Origin: Chloroflexota bacterium
Lineage (GTDB): Bacteria; Chloroflexota; Dehalococcoidia; Lucifugimonadales; UBA3495
DNA: 64,000 bases
Direction: 5' to 3'
Assembly (NCBI GenBank): GCA_026710825.1
Contig: JAPOQH010000060.1
Location: forward strand, 1-64,000
A program made the translations under genes and the position numbers. Below the pieces are notes generated by a model. It did not search any database. It was not told where the DNA came from and worked only from the letters and a program-made list of their open reading frames with translations. Below, piece by piece: positions 41,977 to 49,639 of the stretch. Positions within the stretch are counted from its first letter, which is position 1. The number at the start of each line of letters is the position of its first letter.

Positions 41977-43881
41977 CTAATCCTCCAGCGTCGTTATGTC
42001 CCCCGGGTCCAGCCCAAGCTCCTGCGCCTTCAGCAGCCGCCGCATGATCTTGCCCGACCGCGTCTTCGGCAGCGTCGGCGTGAACTCGATCTCCGACGGG
42101 ACGGCGATGGGGCCAAGCTCGCGGCGGACGTGGAGCTGCAGGTCGTTGATCATGCGGTCGGAGCCCTCGCTGCCCATCCGCAGGGTCACAAACCCCTTGA
42201 TGGTCTCGCCGCGCAGCTCATCCGGCTTGCCGATCACCGCGGCCTCCGCGACCTCCGGATGCGACACCAGCGCGGACTCCCCCTCGGCCGACCCGATGCG
42301 GTGCCCCGCCACGTTCAGCACGTCGTCGGCCCGGCCCACCACCATGTAGTAGCCGTCCGCGTCCCGCAACGCCACGTCGCCCGAGGAGTACACGCCCGGA
42401 ATCTGCTCCCAGGTGTCGGCATATCGCCCGTGGTCGCCCCACACGGTGCGCGAAAAATGCGGGAACGGCCGCCGGATCACCAGGAAGCCGCCCTTGTCCG
42501 GCTCCTCGATGGGCTGGCCCTCCCGGTCCACGATGTCCATCACCGCGCCCGGCAGCGGCTTGCCGACCCGGCCCGGCCGCGTCGTCATCGTCGCCGTCGT
42601 GCCCAGGCACGGGCCGCCCGTCTCCGTCTGCCACCAGTTGTCCACCATGTGCGCCCACTCGCCGCTGCCGCAGATGTGCTCGTACGCCCACCGCAGTGCC
42701 TCTGGATTCAGCGGCTCGCCGGCGCAGGTCAGGAACCGCAGCGACCGCAGGTTGTAGCGGCTGGCCGGCTCCTCGCCGTAGCGCATCAGCATCCGCACCG
42801 CCGTCGGCGCCGTGAATATCACGTTGACGCCGTACTTCTCGATGACCTCGTAGAACACGGCGTTGTGCGGGAAGTCGGGCGCGCCCTCGCGGAACACCGT
42901 CGTCGCTCCCGCCACCAGCGGCGCGTACACGATGTAGCTGTGGCCCACGACCCAGCCGATGTCGGACATGCACCAGAACACGTCGTTGTCCTTCACGTCC
43001 CAGAAGTTCTTGAAGTGGTAGTGCGTCCCCACCATGTACCCGCCGTGGACGTGCACCACGCCCTTGGGCCGGCCCGTGGTACCGCTGGTGTACAGGATGT
43101 ACAGCGGGTCCTCCGCGTCCATCACCTCGGCGGGGCAGTCGATGCCGCTGTTGGCGATCAGTTCGTCGAAGTCCACCTCGCCGTCGCGCAGGTCCTCGCG
43201 TGCTAACTCGCGCCGGAACACGATCACGCTGGTCAGGCTGTCGCAGCCTTCCACCGCCTCGTCGGCGATTCCCTTCAGGTCAACCTTGTTCCCCCTGCGA
43301 TACCCCACGTCGCCGGTGATCAGCGCCTTCGCCTCGGCGTCCTGGATGCGGTCCCGCAGCGACCCCACGCTGAAACCGGCGTACACCACGCTGTGAATCG
43401 CCCCGATGCGCGCGCACGCCAGCATGCTGATCGCCCCCTCCGGCGTCAGCGGCATGTAGATCACCACCCGGTCGCCCTTGCCCACGCCCTGCGACTTCAA
43501 CCCGTTGGCGAATCGGTTCACCTGCTGCGCCAGCCGCGCGTAGGTGTACACCTGCTCGGTGCCGTCCTCGCCCAGCCAGATCAGCGCGGCCTTGTTGCGG
43601 CGCTCGGTCGTCAGGTGCCGGTCCAGCGCGTTGTAGGCGATGTTGGTCTGCCCGCCCACGAACCACCGGAAGTTCGGATACTCCCACTGGAAAACGTCGT
43701 CCCACTTGCGGAACCAGTGCAGTTCCTCGGCCGCCTCGGCCCAAAACCCCTCGGGGTCCTCCACCGACCGCGCATACACCCCGTCGTAGTCGGACATGGT
43801 TGCCTGGCCGGAAACGTGGGGTGGCGGCGGAATCTCGCCGGCCTCCTGCAGAAGATGGTCAATCTGTCCCTGCTGAACCAT
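41977..43881 (-). CDS. acsA: Acetyl-CoA synthetase
   Basis: This 634-residue AMP-forming acetyl-CoA synthetase converts acetate, ATP and CoA to acetyl-CoA. It has the adenylation motif Y-T-S-G-T-T-G-R-P-K-G-V-V-H near residues 264-277, the acetate-pocket region D-N-W-W-Q-T-E-T-G near 415-423, the hinge and G-R-A-D-D-V-L-N-V-A-G-H-R-I near 519-532, and the acetylatable Lys in P-K-T-R-S-G-K-I-M-R-R near 609-619. Length is normal. It stands between two toxin-antitoxin groups but is itself a core metabolic gene. Confidence 0.96.
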   Translation of the reverse strand: MVQQGQIDHLLQEAGEIPPPPHVSGQATMSDYDGVYARSVEDPEGFWAEAAEELHWFRKWDDVFQWEYPNFRWFVGGQTNIAYNALDRHLTTERRNKAALIWLGEDGTEQVYTYARLAQQVNRFANGLKSQGVGKGDRVVIYMPLTPEGAISMLACARIGAIHSVVYAGFSVGSLRDRIQDAEAKALITGDVGYRRGNKVDLKGIADEAVEGCDSLTSVIVFRRELAREDLRDGEVDFDELIANSGIDCPAEVMDAEDPLYILYTSGTTGRPKGVVHVHGGYMVGTHYHFKNFWDVKDNDVFWCMSDIGWVVGHSYIVYAPLVAGATTVFREGAPDFPHNAVFYEVIEKYGVNVIFTAPTAVRMLMRYGEEPASRYNLRSLRFLTCAGEPLNPEALRWAYEHICGSGEWAHMVDNWWQTETGGPCLGTTATMTTRPGRVGKPLPGAVMDIVDREGQPIEEPDKGGFLVIRRPFPHFSRTVWGDHGRYADTWEQIPGVYSSGDVALRDADGYYMVVGRADDVLNVAGHRIGSAEGESALVSHPEVAEAAVIGKPDELRGETIKGFVTLRMGSEGSDRMINDLQLHVRRELGPIAVPSEIEFTPTLPKTRSGKIMRRLLKAQELGLDPGDITTLED

Positions 43882-44776: not shown

Positions 44777-47700
44777 CTACCCCGACCGCTCCACCCCCGA
44801 CCGCTCCTCCAACTCCCCAACGATCCCCACCGTCGCCACGCTCACCGCGCACACCCGGTCCAGCAACTCCACCACCCGCTCCTTGTGCTCCGCGAACCGG
44901 TACGTGTTGAACCGCTCCCGAATCGTCGGATCCCTCGGCTTCTTCTCCTTGTACTGGTCCAGCACCCACTCCAGCGCCGATCTGCTCCCCAGCCGGTACT
45001 CCCACGCCTCCGCCGGCACCCCGCGCAGCGACGTCTCACCATCCAGCCGTATCACCCCAACATCCCGGTCGGCCCGTAAAATCACCCTTGCCGCTCGTCC
45101 CGATCCTGTCGACGCGCCCGCACCTGCCCCCGCCTCAACCCGCTCCAACCCCCACGGCTCCACCGACTCAAACCCGATGTGCAGATCCAACAACTCCCGA
45201 CCCTTGCCGGCCCACCACTCAAAATCATCCTGGAAAAACACCCGCGGAAACTCCCGCCGCAGGTCAACCTCATACCGCTCCCGGTACGCCGGGTCGTGCA
45301 GCATCGCGTACACGTACGCAAACACGTCCTCCGCGCCGATCCCATCGTCTCCGTAATGCTCCCGAAACTGCCGCAACCCCCACTCCGTGATGTTGCTAAC
45401 CCGCTCCCCGTCCGCCGTATAGCGGTACAGCGGCACGCAGAACGTTGCTGAATTGTTAGTGTCGCAATATTTCTTCTCCACCAGCTTGTCGGAACCCAGT
45501 ACCGCGAAATTATTCGATCCAGGTCCGGTCATACAGGCCACCGTGTTAGGCTGTCGCAGATCAGACCCAAACATCGAATAGTGATTTCTGGTCAACACAT
45601 CATTCATTGTGGTATCAGCGAAGTATTGCTTCACGATAAATGGACGGTACAAACACTTTATCCGATTCGCGTCATTGTAGGCGATCCGAACTCCTCGTTG
45701 GAATTTGTTGCGCAGGTCGCGACTCCATTTGATGACGGTTGGGTACGATCGGTCATTTTTTTCTACCAAATCGTTATATACGTCCGAGAAATACAAAGCC
45801 TTGTCTCTCAGATTATTGATCTCGAAGTCGTACACCCACTCGTCTCGATTCGTGGAAGTGCCTAACGCGTACAGATGGAACAGCCCGTGCTGATCAGCGT
45901 GGTCCCTAGAATCCTTGCCTTGTCGAGCGACTATTGGGATGAGTCCCATAAACTCCGCATCAGGTTTATTGAACCAATTTCCTTTGGCATCAGGTTCGAT
46001 TTCTTCGAACTGTATTGTGCTTATATCCAGCGTCTTCAGTTCCGATAATTTTTCGCGTCCGGTTTGTCGATCAGGGATGCATCGGTAGTGGATATGGTCG
46101 CTGCTTTGTTCGACAGCACCTTTGACGAAGAAGCCGACCGCCACCCCTATTCGAATGCCGAAAATATTGCTGCCGCGTCCGCTCCTCTGGAAATTGCCGC
46201 CTAGATCAATGATGTACAGGTTACTGAACTCTCGTAAAAGTTCTTTTCGGAAACCGTCGTCCTGCAAAGCATCCAGATAGGCCCGGTTAGTGACAAAAGC
46301 GATTACACCGCTGTCCTCCAGCCTATCCGATGCCCAACGGATGAACCGTTTGTACATATCGTACTGTTTGGTTTTGGTCGCTACACTGTTCGCAACATAT
46401 GTATCGCGGATGCGCTGATCAACATCGGGGTAGACGATGTTGGGATTAAAATCGTTCCAATTCTGTTGATTCGCGTTGTAAGGTGGGTTGCCGATGATAA
46501 CGCTGATCGCCTGCTTATTCTGGTCTCGCACACGCAGTAAATTTTCTTCCGATAGGCCGCCGAGGTTCAGTCCAATTTGGAATGTGAATGTGCTGCCAGC
46601 AGAGCCGCGCCAGTCCATGTTGTCCAGCGTGTCCACGAAGCTCAGGTTCGGGAACTCCAGGTATCGCCCCGTCCGCTCCCGGTACGTGTACTCAATGTTC
46701 AGGTTCGCGATGTAGTACGGCAGGATCGCCACCTCGTTGGCGTAGATCTCGTTCCGGTACTTGTGCTCCAGCCTCTCCACCGGCAGGTGGTTGATCAGGT
46801 TCGTGATGAACGTCCCCGTCCCCGTCGCCGGGTCCAGGATGTTCACGTTGTCGTCCGCCAGAGTCTTCCCGAAGTGCTTCTGCAACAGCCAGTCCGTCCC
46901 CCGGATGATGAAGTCCACCACCTCGTTGGGCGTGTACACCACCCCCAGCCGGTCCGCCGCCGCCGGGTTGTAGGCCTGGTAAAAGTCCTCGTAGATCGCC
47001 TTCAGGAACTGCTGCTTCTCGGCGTAGTCGGCAATCTCGTGCGCCGCCCGCCCGATCGCCCCGTAGTAAATCCGCAGCCGGTCCATCGCCTCCTGCCGCA
47101 CCGACCCCGTGAAAAACGTCCGCGCCAGCCCGTCCAACTGCCGAGCCACGTTGTTTTCCCGGTGAAACTGCACGTTGGAGAAGATGCTCAGGAAGATGTC
47201 CTCGGTGAGGATGTGCTGCAGCAGCATCTCCCGCACGTCCGCGTCCGACACGTCCGGGCTGATGCTCCGCCGGCATAGCTCCAGGAACCCGTCGGCGGCA
47301 ACCCGATACTCTGAATTGCTGGCCTCGGCCTCCGCCACCGTCTCCCGCAGGTTCTCCAGCACCGCCGGCAGGTCCGTCTTGAACTGCTGCCGCGCCTGCC
47401 GGAACTCCTCGATCTCCGGCAACTCATGGTCCAGGAACCGCGAAATCAGGCGGTGCAACTCGCCCGGCCGCGACATGTCCACCCGCATCGACTCGGCGCC
47501 GTTCTGGAACAGCACCGCCGTCTCCGAGTCCTCAAAGACGATGTTGTCCCTGGGATACCCCCGGTTGAACTTGGCCTGGATCTCCGCGTCCAGGTCGTCG
47601 TGCGTGTCCTTCGCCTCCCAGTACCCCCGCGCCATCCGCAGCGCGTCCTTCACCGTCCCGTCCGGCCGTATTCCCGATTCAGTCAACGGAGCGCCGACGC

Positions 47701-47863
47701 TCAGCTCATCGATCAGCGCCAGCTTGTCCCGGTGGTCCCGGCAGTAAGAGTCCAGGCACACCGCAAACGCCCGCCGGATGCTCTGCTCGTTGTCCGAGCC
47801 GCCAAACTCCACCAGCCGCTGCAAATCCGCATGGTATCGCTCAATGTGGGGGTAGGTGGGCAT
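44777..47863 (-). CDS. Helicase-less type IIG/ISP-like restriction-modification enzyme
   Basis: This 1028-residue single-chain enzyme combines an N-terminal PD-(D/E)XK nuclease (R-P-D-G with D68, then Y-W-E-A-K-D with E83 and K85), a helical spacer, an N6-adenine methylase (motif I L-D-P-A-T-G-T-G-T-F near 343-352; motif IV G-N-P-P-Y-N-A-N near 458-465) and a C-terminal target-recognition region. Type ISP enzymes have the same order but add a DEAD helicase; none is here, so this resembles a type IIG enzyme. The middle, about 45440-46560, is clearly AT-richer than the flanks, suggesting exchange of methylase/recognition segments. No specificity gene is adjacent. Confidence 0.88.
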   Translation of the reverse strand: MPTYPHIERYHADLQRLVEFGGSDNEQSIRRAFAVCLDSYCRDHRDKLALIDELSVGAPLTESGIRPDGTVKDALRMARGYWEAKDTHDDLDAEIQAKFNRGYPRDNIVFEDSETAVLFQNGAESMRVDMSRPGELHRLISRFLDHELPEIEEFRQARQQFKTDLPAVLENLRETVAEAEASNSEYRVAADGFLELCRRSISPDVSDADVREMLLQHILTEDIFLSIFSNVQFHRENNVARQLDGLARTFFTGSVRQEAMDRLRIYYGAIGRAAHEIADYAEKQQFLKAIYEDFYQAYNPAAADRLGVVYTPNEVVDFIIRGTDWLLQKHFGKTLADDNVNILDPATGTGTFITNLINHLPVERLEHKYRNEIYANEVAILPYYIANLNIEYTYRERTGRYLEFPNLSFVDTLDNMDWRGSAGSTFTFQIGLNLGGLSEENLLRVRDQNKQAISVIIGNPPYNANQQNWNDFNPNIVYPDVDQRIRDTYVANSVATKTKQYDMYKRFIRWASDRLEDSGVIAFVTNRAYLDALQDDGFRKELLREFSNLYIIDLGGNFQRSGRGSNIFGIRIGVAVGFFVKGAVEQSSDHIHYRCIPDRQTGREKLSELKTLDISTIQFEEIEPDAKGNWFNKPDAEFMGLIPIVARQGKDSRDHADQHGLFHLYALGTSTNRDEWVYDFEINNLRDKALYFSDVYNDLVEKNDRSYPTVIKWSRDLRNKFQRGVRIAYNDANRIKCLYRPFIVKQYFADTTMNDVLTRNHYSMFGSDLRQPNTVACMTGPGSNNFAVLGSDKLVEKKYCDTNNSATFCVPLYRYTADGERVSNITEWGLRQFREHYGDDGIGAEDVFAYVYAMLHDPAYRERYEVDLRREFPRVFFQDDFEWWAGKGRELLDLHIGFESVEPWGLERVEAGAGAGASTGSGRAARVILRADRDVGVIRLDGETSLRGVPAEAWEYRLGSRSALEWVLDQYKEKKPRDPTIRERFNTYRFAEHKERVVELLDRVCAVSVATVGIVGELEERSGVERSG

Positions 47864-47871
47864 GGCGGTGG

Positions 47872-48312
47872 TCAGGCCTCGCGGAGCAGAGCTCGGAAAC
47901 CGGCCTGCACAAAATCTACGTCATAGGCCAGCGCTTCCATGATGCCCCGTTCTTCCATAATCAGAAAACTTGCGCAATCCGTAACGCTCCACCGCTGGTC
48001 GAGGCGGTAGGAGTAACGCCGCAGCGCGGCATTCAGTTGACCGCGCTCTTGAGGAATAACCTCCACATTGGGGTTGCTCCAAAGTCTTTCTACCGCAGCG
48101 GCGGCTTGCCGTCGACTGGTTGCTCCGCCTCTGCTGCAAAAGTTCAGGAACTCAACCAGTACCATGTCACTGGTGACTATTCGCCTGTCCACCAAGGACA
48201 CTGCGGCGTCTCGCGCGCTCCCGTGCCATTCATCTCCGGGATTGTGCAGGGCTATCCAGTAGCCGGTATCGGCAAACACCTCTGTTGAGTCAATTTCCCT
48301 TACCTCCGTCAC
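47872..48312 (-). CDS. vapC: VapC-type PIN-domain toxin, second copy
   Basis: This 146-residue PIN-domain protein has the first acidic residue in V-F-A-D-T-G-Y-W-I-A-L (near 12-22), M-V-L-V-E-F-L-N near 50-57, and W-S-V-T-D-C-A-S-F near 108-116. It follows the antitoxin with a 4-bp overlap (48309-48312) and lies 8 bp upstream of the restriction-modification gene on the same strand, so they may be co-transcribed. Confidence 0.9.
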   Translation of the reverse strand: MTEVREIDSTEVFADTGYWIALHNPGDEWHGSARDAAVSLVDRRIVTSDMVLVEFLNFCSRGGATSRRQAAAAVERLWSNPNVEVIPQERGQLNAALRRYSYRLDQRWSVTDCASFLIMEERGIMEALAYDVDFVQAGFRALLREA

Positions 48313-48632
48313 CGTTCATCCTCTACTTTGGGAAAGCCATACAGATAGTGCTTGTAGTTTCTCGACCCGTCGGCAGGCAGTCCGTCGAGCGCTCCCTCCG
48401 GCATTGAGCCGTGAAGTTCGTCGAATATATCCAGGATAGATTGGCCGACGCCGACGTTGGTTTCTCCGTTGGTTGATTCGAGTTGAGACTCCTTGTCCAC
48501 CGGCGCCGGCTCGTCAACGCTCTGCCGTCCCACCGAAACCAGCCAGGCGTCCAGCGTCTTGCCCTCGCGTTTGGCCTGCTCGGAGAACCTTTCGCGGTCT
48601 TCCTCGGACATTTCGACTTGTACCCTGACCAT
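48309..48632 (-). CDS. vapB: VapB-like antitoxin, second copy
   Basis: The 107-residue antitoxin starts at M-V-R-V-Q-V-E-M-S-E (48632): AGGAG abuts an ATG three codons earlier but lies 9 nt before this one. The N-terminal pattern (V-R-V-Q-V, then E-E-D-R-E-R-F-S-E-Q-A-K-R-E-G-K-T-L-D) is ribbon-helix-helix-like, as in many VapB/CopG proteins. An acidic linker and a tail with Y-K-H-Y-L-Y-G-F-P-K follow. It should repress the operon together with VapC. Confidence 0.82.
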   Translation of the reverse strand: MVRVQVEMSEEDRERFSEQAKREGKTLDAWLVSVGRQSVDEPAPVDKESQLESTNGETNVGVGQSILDIFDELHGSMPEGALDGLPADGSRNYKHYLYGFPKVEDER

Positions 48633-48787
48633 GGCGTTCATCTCCTGACTCAAACAGGATAGCACCCGAAGGCTATCCGCTATCCCGGCAGCGGTCAATT
48701 GCGCTGCTGTCGCTCCGCCGTTGACCCGCCGGGCCGCCGCACCCTACAATCGTCGCCATCCCAATCCGTCCCCGCAGGAGCCATCCC

Positions 48788-49639
48788 ATGACCACCGCCT
48801 CCGAAGGCTACGCTCACCCTGAATACCTGACCGACGCCGCGTGGGTCGCCGCGCACCTGGACGATCCCAACGTCGTCATCCTGGACTGCGCGAATACCGC
48901 TGACGCCTGGCAGCGCGGACACATCCCCGGCGCCGCCCACGTCGCCGACAACTGGGCCAAGAACCCCGACACCCAGCGCCAGCACGTCATGACGCCCGAC
49001 CAGTTCAAGGCCATGGCCGAGGGCTACGGCATCGGCGACGACACCACCGTCGTCACCTACGACCACGCCCAGGGCCTCACCGCCGCCCGCATCTGGTGGG
49101 TGTTCAACTACTACGGCCACACCGACGTCAAGGTGCTCAACGGCGGTTGGCGCGCCTGGGTCAACGCCGGACAGCCTGTCGATTTCGGGCGTCCCAAAGC
49201 CCCTGCCTCGGTGACCTTCACCCCCCGCGCCGACGATTCCCTCATCGCCACCGGCGACGAACTCAAGGAGGCCTGTTCATTGGACGGGGCACGGGACGAC
49301 GTCGTCGTCTGGGACGTTCGCAGCGACGGTGAGTGGGACGGGTCGGCTCCCAACTATAGCAACGCGCGGCAGGGGCACGTCCCCGGCGCCGTGCACCTGG
49401 AGTGGTTCCACCTCATGGACCGCAACACCCACGAGTTCAAGCCCGCCGCCGAGATCCGCCAGATCCTCACCGAGCACGGCATCACCCCCGACAAAACCGC
49501 ATACTCCTATTGACAGGCCGGCATCCGTGCGGCGCACGGAAACTTCGTACTCCGACTCGTCGGCTTCCAGAACGCCAAGAACTACGACGCCTCCATGGGC
49601 GAATGGGCCAACCGCGACGACACCCCCCTAACCGTCTAA
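48788..49639 (+). CDS. Rhodanese-type sulfurtransferase with Sec at the catalytic position
   Basis: Two rhodanese domains are present: D-C-A-N-T-A-D-A-W-Q-R-G-H-I-P-G (N-terminal, near 36-51) and V-W-D-V-R-S-D-G-E (C-terminal, near 174-182). The frame meets TGA at 49511-49513, exactly where the family has its active-site Cys (Y-C-Q-A-G-I-R-A). Reading through gives Y-S-Y-U-Q-A-G-I-R-A-A-H-G and the normal end (L-R-L-V-G-F, then D-A-S-M-G-E-W-A-N-R-D) to TAA at 49639, 283 residues with Sec242. A hairpin with GGC loop lies 17 nt after the TGA. It would transfer sulfane sulfur to a thiophilic acceptor. A nonsense mutation is less likely, as the 41 codons beyond are fully conserved. Confidence 0.85.
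49524..49540 (+). promoter_or_regulatory. Candidate bacterial SECIS hairpin (rhodanese gene)
   Basis: TCCGTGC and GCACGGA pair perfectly (7 bp) around the loop GGC. The loop begins 17 nt after the TGA at 49511-49513 and starts with two G, both features of bacterial SECIS elements. It lies inside coding sequence. Confidence 0.72.

Follow-up and report, generated by a model that had tools for sequence, protein, structure and literature searches.

The window, the whole stretch of 64,000 nucleotides analysed here, is contig 48 of a Chloroflexota assembly of 137 contigs (3.86 Mb, 91.67% complete) and contains a rhodanese gene interrupted by an in-frame TGA. ORF calling closes a frame of 241 amino acids (48788–49513) with the TGA at 49511–49513; past it, the same frame continues for 41 sense codons and then ends in TAA at 49637–49639. 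The features of the locus are as follows.

48776..48780, + strand: AGGAG, 7 nt 5' of the ATG and seen directly in the sequence, which we take to be Shine-Dalgarno-like
48788..49639, + strand: two-domain rhodanese gene, predicted to contain selenocysteine (283 amino acids, Sec at 242, TAA stop)
48836..49165, + strand: N-terminal rhodanese domain, residues 17–126, the best Pfam PF00581 stretch
49235..49630, + strand: C-terminal catalytic rhodanese domain, about residues 150–281, the limits being approximate and taken from the 1uar alignment and the secondary structure of the model
49511..49513, + strand: TGA on the position of the catalytic Cys, opening the loop U-Q-A-G-I-R and in all probability decoded as selenocysteine
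49524..49540, + strand: putative bacterial SECIS hairpin with a 7-bp stem and a GGC apical loop at 49531–49533
41977..43881, − strand: acetate--CoA ligase (TIGR02188, 770.5 bits against a cut-off of 724.95), given for context only

With the TGA translated as a residue, the 283-amino-acid protein matches the Pfam Rhodanese family in two stretches (3.4e-34), and residue 242, lying within Y-U-Q-A-G-I-R-A, is aligned to the catalytic-loop Cys of both 1uar and 3p3a. The AlphaFold2 model of this protein has a mean pLDDT of 92.4 and finds its best PDB match in 1uar, a Thermus rhodanese (TM 0.90, 35% identity); EanB-type ergothioneine synthases are also among the fold matches, at 26–28% identity. The Pfam match, the alignment to 1uar and 3p3a and the fold match place the protein in the SseA/TST type with two rhodanese domains, and the in-frame TGA falls on the catalytic Cys in a UxxG motif, here U-Q-A-G. 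A sequence-only reading of this DNA had put the TGA in the place of a rhodanese's catalytic Cys and predicted that standard annotation would truncate the enzyme, and both points are borne out by the alignment of residue 242 of 283 and by the halt of ORF calling at 241 amino acids. None of the NCBIfam models (release 20.0) scores over its cut-off: the 3-MST model reaches 109 bits against 250, the second-best model, a rhodanese of selenite/tellurite reduction, 88.6 against 200, and NF041203 40.9 against 115. Because ORF calling stops at the active site and the NCBIfam models stay below their cut-offs, public genomes probably list the Sec rhodanese as a truncated gene.

The TGA is widely shared. 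Among 60 genomes searched, consisting of the window's own genome and its relatives within the order, a TGA-bearing homologue was found in 45 (own included), among them 13 of the 14 genomes from the genus and 31 of the 36 from the family, and the positive assemblies include single-contig genomes. Wherever a TGA gene was extracted, the TGA corresponds to residue 242, and the aligned column holds Cys or a stop in every row; the own genome itself encodes three further rhodaneses with Cys at this column (CRIGER, CGGGIA and CRSGVR). The comparison with Cys-containing homologues, proposed by the sequence-only reading as a check, thus finds Cys occupying the column of the TGA. The closest homologue with a name, from SAR202 cluster bacterium bin87 (L032), is 92% identical, in keeping with a SAR202-like host. 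The resulting set of 50 TGA and 12 Cys genes leaves out L032–L045 as presumed copies and L096–L099 as duplicates; L042, which seems to be a distinct record among the former, had its hairpin checked separately. Also omitted from the homologue rows were fragments, including one with the TGA (G047:C68), and weaker Cys paralogues (E above about 4e-42) from genomes other than the own. Three genomes of the window's family (G015, G019 and G032; loci L064, L066 and L068) have two closely spaced copies of the Sec rhodanese, each with its TGA and hairpin.

Purifying selection on the codons past the TGA is strong: across the 13 genes of the genus, the ratio of mean dN to mean dS is 0.049 at codons +1 to +39 and 0.044 at +11 to +39, with 0.090 for the 60 codons 5' of the TGA. 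In the larger dN/dS set of 35 genes, from which L094 and 18 more distant TGA rows were left out, stops appear in the frames shifted by one and two in 14 and 13 rows, respectively, which is uninformative either way. Five of the 50 TGA genes use TGA a second time as their terminal stop (L018, L028, L063, L068_b and L094), in the first three of these 40–41 codons past the Sec, as in most rows, so TGA is not a sense codon in general; L003 and L004, Cys paralogues encoded in the own genome, also terminate in TGA.

Beyond the order, a phylum set of 301 genomes, own included, gave 12 genomes with a match at E ≤ 1e-55. With the copied rows L100 and L106 left out, seven of them provide TGA rows (G000, G053, G056, G178, G273, G161 and G233), two lying outside the class, and five provide Cys rows only (G202, G280, G355, G263 and G201). 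In the tree, built without the fragment L094, Sec and Cys forms are interleaved at depth, where branches are weakly supported; the minimum number of Sec/Cys changes is 8, of which 2 are forced by starred branches. The window gene sits in a starred clade of 35 rows that is wholly Sec and whose members all come from its family. Among plasmid records, 289 gave homologues, all of them below 60% identity.

The hairpin downstream of the TGA, UCCGUGC-GGC-GCACGGA, folds at −9.9 kcal/mol (z −3.08 against dinucleotide shuffles). Its stem starts at the 11th nucleotide past the TGA and its loop at the 18th, leaving a spacer of 17 nt between TGA and loop; the sequence-only reading was right about the 7 bp and the GGC loop and misplaced the start of the stem, its figure of 17 nt being the distance to the loop. 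The bacterial SECIS model, as given in the part of PMC13188914 consulted, specifies a stem of 4–16 bp, a loop of 3–9 nt with G in one of the first two positions, a spacer of 16–37 nt and a minimum free energy of at most −7.5, and the window hairpin falls within all these limits with its 7 bp, 3-nt GGC, 17 nt and −9.9 kcal/mol. All 54 extracted TGA genes have a stem of 6–8 bp with a 3-nt loop starting with G; the apical loop begins at nt 18 in 48 of them and at nt 26 in the other 6, and no gene among the 54 has a stem of at least 6 bp at both places. The best hairpin lies at nt 18 in none of the 12 Cys genes, five of which have a 6–7-bp stem at scattered other places in the allowed range.

The pairing itself is conserved. 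Standard pairs fill 317 of the 336 pair cells (94%) in the 48 nt-18 genes, which are related and comprise just 11 distinct 17-mers, and the maximum in 1000 shuffles of the partners was 303; sliding the partners by 1–3 nt lowers the share to 16–69%. Compensatory changes are found at pair 16–22 (G-C to U-A, four rows), pair 12–26 (six rows) and pair 11–27 (two rows). The first alters the protein on both sides, from Ala to Ser and from His to Asn, which is what a functional RNA pair would predict. The choice of codons is similarly narrow: Arg +5 is CGT in 43 of 50 TGA genes, a codon used for 60 of the 783 Arg residues elsewhere in them, and Ala +6 and Ala +7 are GCG in 46/46 and 47/47 cases, against 306/1228 elsewhere. 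The compensatory pair changes and the narrow choice of codons suggest that the RNA is under selection. Overall fold energy was set aside as a test for SECIS elements, the regions considered not being significantly stable: the 45-nt energy differs from synonymous recodings at p ≤ 0.05 in only 5 of 50 TGA genes, and the 43-nt fold of the window has a z of −0.14. When the specific stem-loop is tested, 29 of the 50 genes lie at p ≤ 0.05 and 10 at p ≤ 0.01.

The six rows with the hairpin at nt 26 (L026:1498-2322, L027, L031, L060, L062 and L063) come from five genomes, G014, G029, G016, G030 and, with two copies, G031; the separately checked L042 has the same arrangement. They share the protein motif UQGGIRAANS, an 8-bp stem with a loop of GUG, GUU or GUC and a nt-18 stem reduced to 1 bp, and in the tree they group as a single subset (SH-aLRT 90, not starred), next to which L028 and L067 retain the nt-18 hairpin. 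The recoding signal of a single selenoprotein gene thus seems to have been swapped for another 8 nt downstream. Such a relocated hairpin amounts to a natural experiment in replacing a recoding signal inside coding sequence; the portions consulted of the selenoprotein papers cited here hold no report of SECIS relocation, a topic outside our literature search.

The sequence-only reading had named a genome without a Sec system as grounds for refutation, and the own genome has a complete one: tRNA-Sec carrying the anticodon TCA (66.4 bits against a gathering score of 47), SelB (366.3, cut-off 242.25), SelA (547.7, cut-off 267.9) and SelD (376.8, cut-off 125). The SelD gene (L057:1501-2424) has an in-frame TGA of its own, in HCAGUAAKLS, so Sec decoding would be needed to make Sec. 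SelA scores over its cut-off in 55 of the 60 genomes of the order and in 42 of the 45 with the TGA, the three without it (G020, G029 and G059) being 66, 71 and 81% complete; as SelA is near-universal in the order, correlating the Sec system with the Sec or Cys form of the rhodanese is uninformative.

An ORF of the acetate--CoA ligase family is present in 15 of the 55 loci compared, upstream and in opposite orientation where inspected; the flanks of these loci are of unequal length and at least one contig (L044/L065) is counted twice. In some other genomes, the ligase and the rhodanese are 40–300 nt apart; here, the stretch between them at 44777–48698 holds three ORFs, one Type ISP restriction-modification-like, one with a PIN domain and one small and unmatched in Pfam, together a probable insertion. 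On the 3' side, much of the genus has a gene with a nuclease domain (SNase), a DASS-like symporter (141 bits, below the cut-off of 198.6) and RelA/SpoT, and beyond the genus, no other neighbour is visibly conserved among the 55 loci. With so little shared, we dropped the attempt to read the function of the rhodanese from its neighbours.

We conclude, with a probability of roughly 0.96, that residue 242 of the window rhodanese is selenocysteine. This reading of the sequence evidence builds on the complete Sec system in the same genome, on a TGA that dozens of assemblies have at the Cys column, on the Cys homologues sharing that column, on the purifying selection past the TGA and on the covarying hairpin with its constrained codon choice. 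SelB, bound to the hairpin at 49524–49540, would help the ribosome to insert Sec at the UGA at 49511–49513 and so give the 283-amino-acid enzyme; without selenium, translation would stop at residue 241 and leave a protein lacking the active-site loop. Rhodaneses hold sulfane sulfur as a cysteine persulfide, and Sec242 would take the position of the persulfide Cys. Sulfane sulfur from thiosulfate, 3-mercaptopyruvate or polysulfide may then be taken up as a Sec selenopersulfide, Sec-Se-S(-), and may pass from there to an external thiol or a protein acceptor. Judged by the fold and the conserved site, sulfur-transfer chemistry at Sec242 is the probable function. More tentatively, the gene may represent a natural enzyme working through an encoded selenopersulfide (R-Se-S-), retained by the majority of the genomes sampled from an order of Chloroflexota related to SAR202, with the SECIS moved and the protein kept in one subclade. 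If so, selenium could give it a range of donors or a resistance to over-oxidation beyond that of the Cys paralogues of the same cells.

Two other explanations keep the Sec and differ from sulfur transfer in chemistry. The protein could be a redox enzyme acting on thiols or peroxides through a selenenic acid or selenenylsulfide cycle, which we consider rather unlikely. Sec is thought to be resistant to over-oxidation, which would suit such an enzyme, and external thiols could still resolve a Sec intermediate. Selenoproteins of known function are mostly oxidoreductases (PMC2398784 and PMC9312934, in the parts consulted). Against this, there is no UxxC motif and no universal Cys beside the Sec: the only Cys residues of the window protein, C34 and C163, are found in 36 and 33, respectively, of the 53 Sec rows, and Cys rhodaneses have the remainder of the conserved catalytic domain in common with it. 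The missing resolving Cys favours a transferase over an internal selenenylsulfide cycle, without amounting to proof. Alternatively, the Sec could bind selenium in place of sulfur, the enzyme passing, for example, reduced selenium towards SelD. Rhodanese-bound selenium is a substrate of SelD in vitro, and the second-best NCBIfam model, well below its cut-off as noted, belongs to selenite/tellurite reduction. We nevertheless regard this as improbable: none of the neighbours in view, whose ORF starts were inspected by eye, was evidently a Sec-system gene, and the enzyme itself needs the Sec machinery, so its selenium supply would be circular.

Explanations without Sec have next to no standing. 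A pseudogene, a sequencing error or a programmed truncation to 241 amino acids would agree with the halt of ORF calling at the TGA and is contradicted by the recurrence of the TGA in 45 of the 60 genomes searched, by a column with Cys or a stop in every row and by a dN/dS of 0.04–0.05 past the TGA; base-calling error, in particular, is very unlikely because the TGA recurs in other genomes. An in-frame TGA is by itself not diagnostic, but a general reassignment of TGA, or its suppression by another tRNA (e.g., Trp or Gly), has an equally negligible chance, given that TGA terminates sibling genes and also five of the TGA genes themselves, that homologues have Cys at the column and that the hairpin and the machinery fit Sec.

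The novelty implied by the sequence-only reading does not hold, Sec-containing COG2897 rhodaneses being already in print. In the parts of the sources consulted, a COG2897 rhodanese-related sulfurtransferase is described as a new selenoprotein family with three sequences from the Sargasso Sea in 2005 (PMC1088965), the GOS table of 2008 lists selenoproteins of cd01449 (8) and COG2897 (1) (PMC2398784), and the family is included in the reviews PMC9312934 and PMC13188914, in the latter as form 4 with UxxG. The window gene is presumably orthologous to the published examples AACY01016424, MQG53192.1 and MCY3690685.1. The same parts of the cited selenoprotein papers do not mention a spread of the Sec rhodanese through this order, no title or opening of an abstract among the listed papers on selenoproteins in SAR202 or Chloroflexota treats it, and the portions consulted of PMC5029168, PMC1794560 and PMC12013277 are silent on it; at the level of literature listings, we found no biochemical test of a Sec rhodanese or of the role of its selenium. 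That selenium is encoded at the persulfide atom across most sampled genomes suggests that it repays its cost, and the natural pairs of Sec and Cys forms make the function directly testable.

Compared with known systems, the window enzyme shares with the Cys-dependent TST and 3-MST proteins (1uar, SseA, bovine TST) the fold, the order of the domains and the place of the catalytic residue, which is Cys in them and Sec here. The catalytic loops differ, with UQAGIR in the window enzyme, CRIGER in a paralogue and CGSGVT in 3-MST. Other rhodanese selenoproteins, forms 1, 2, 3 and 5 in the consulted part of PMC13188914 (e.g., NF041203 and TsoB), also combine a rhodanese domain with Sec; forms 1, 3 and 5 have other motifs there (UxxS, CxU and UxxxxU), whereas form 2 has UxxG too (example MBM9537886.1; COG0607 in the corresponding part of PMC9312934). 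The published COG2897/SseA Sec rhodaneses, for which the consulted parts state the family, the numbers of sequences and accessions of examples, with no mention of a host lineage, are of the same SseA type and have the same UxxG motif as the U-Q-A-G of the window, and a SECIS element is drawn for them in a figure of PMC1088965, as one is present here. The window gene is a well-supported member of this known, predicted Sec COG2897 family.
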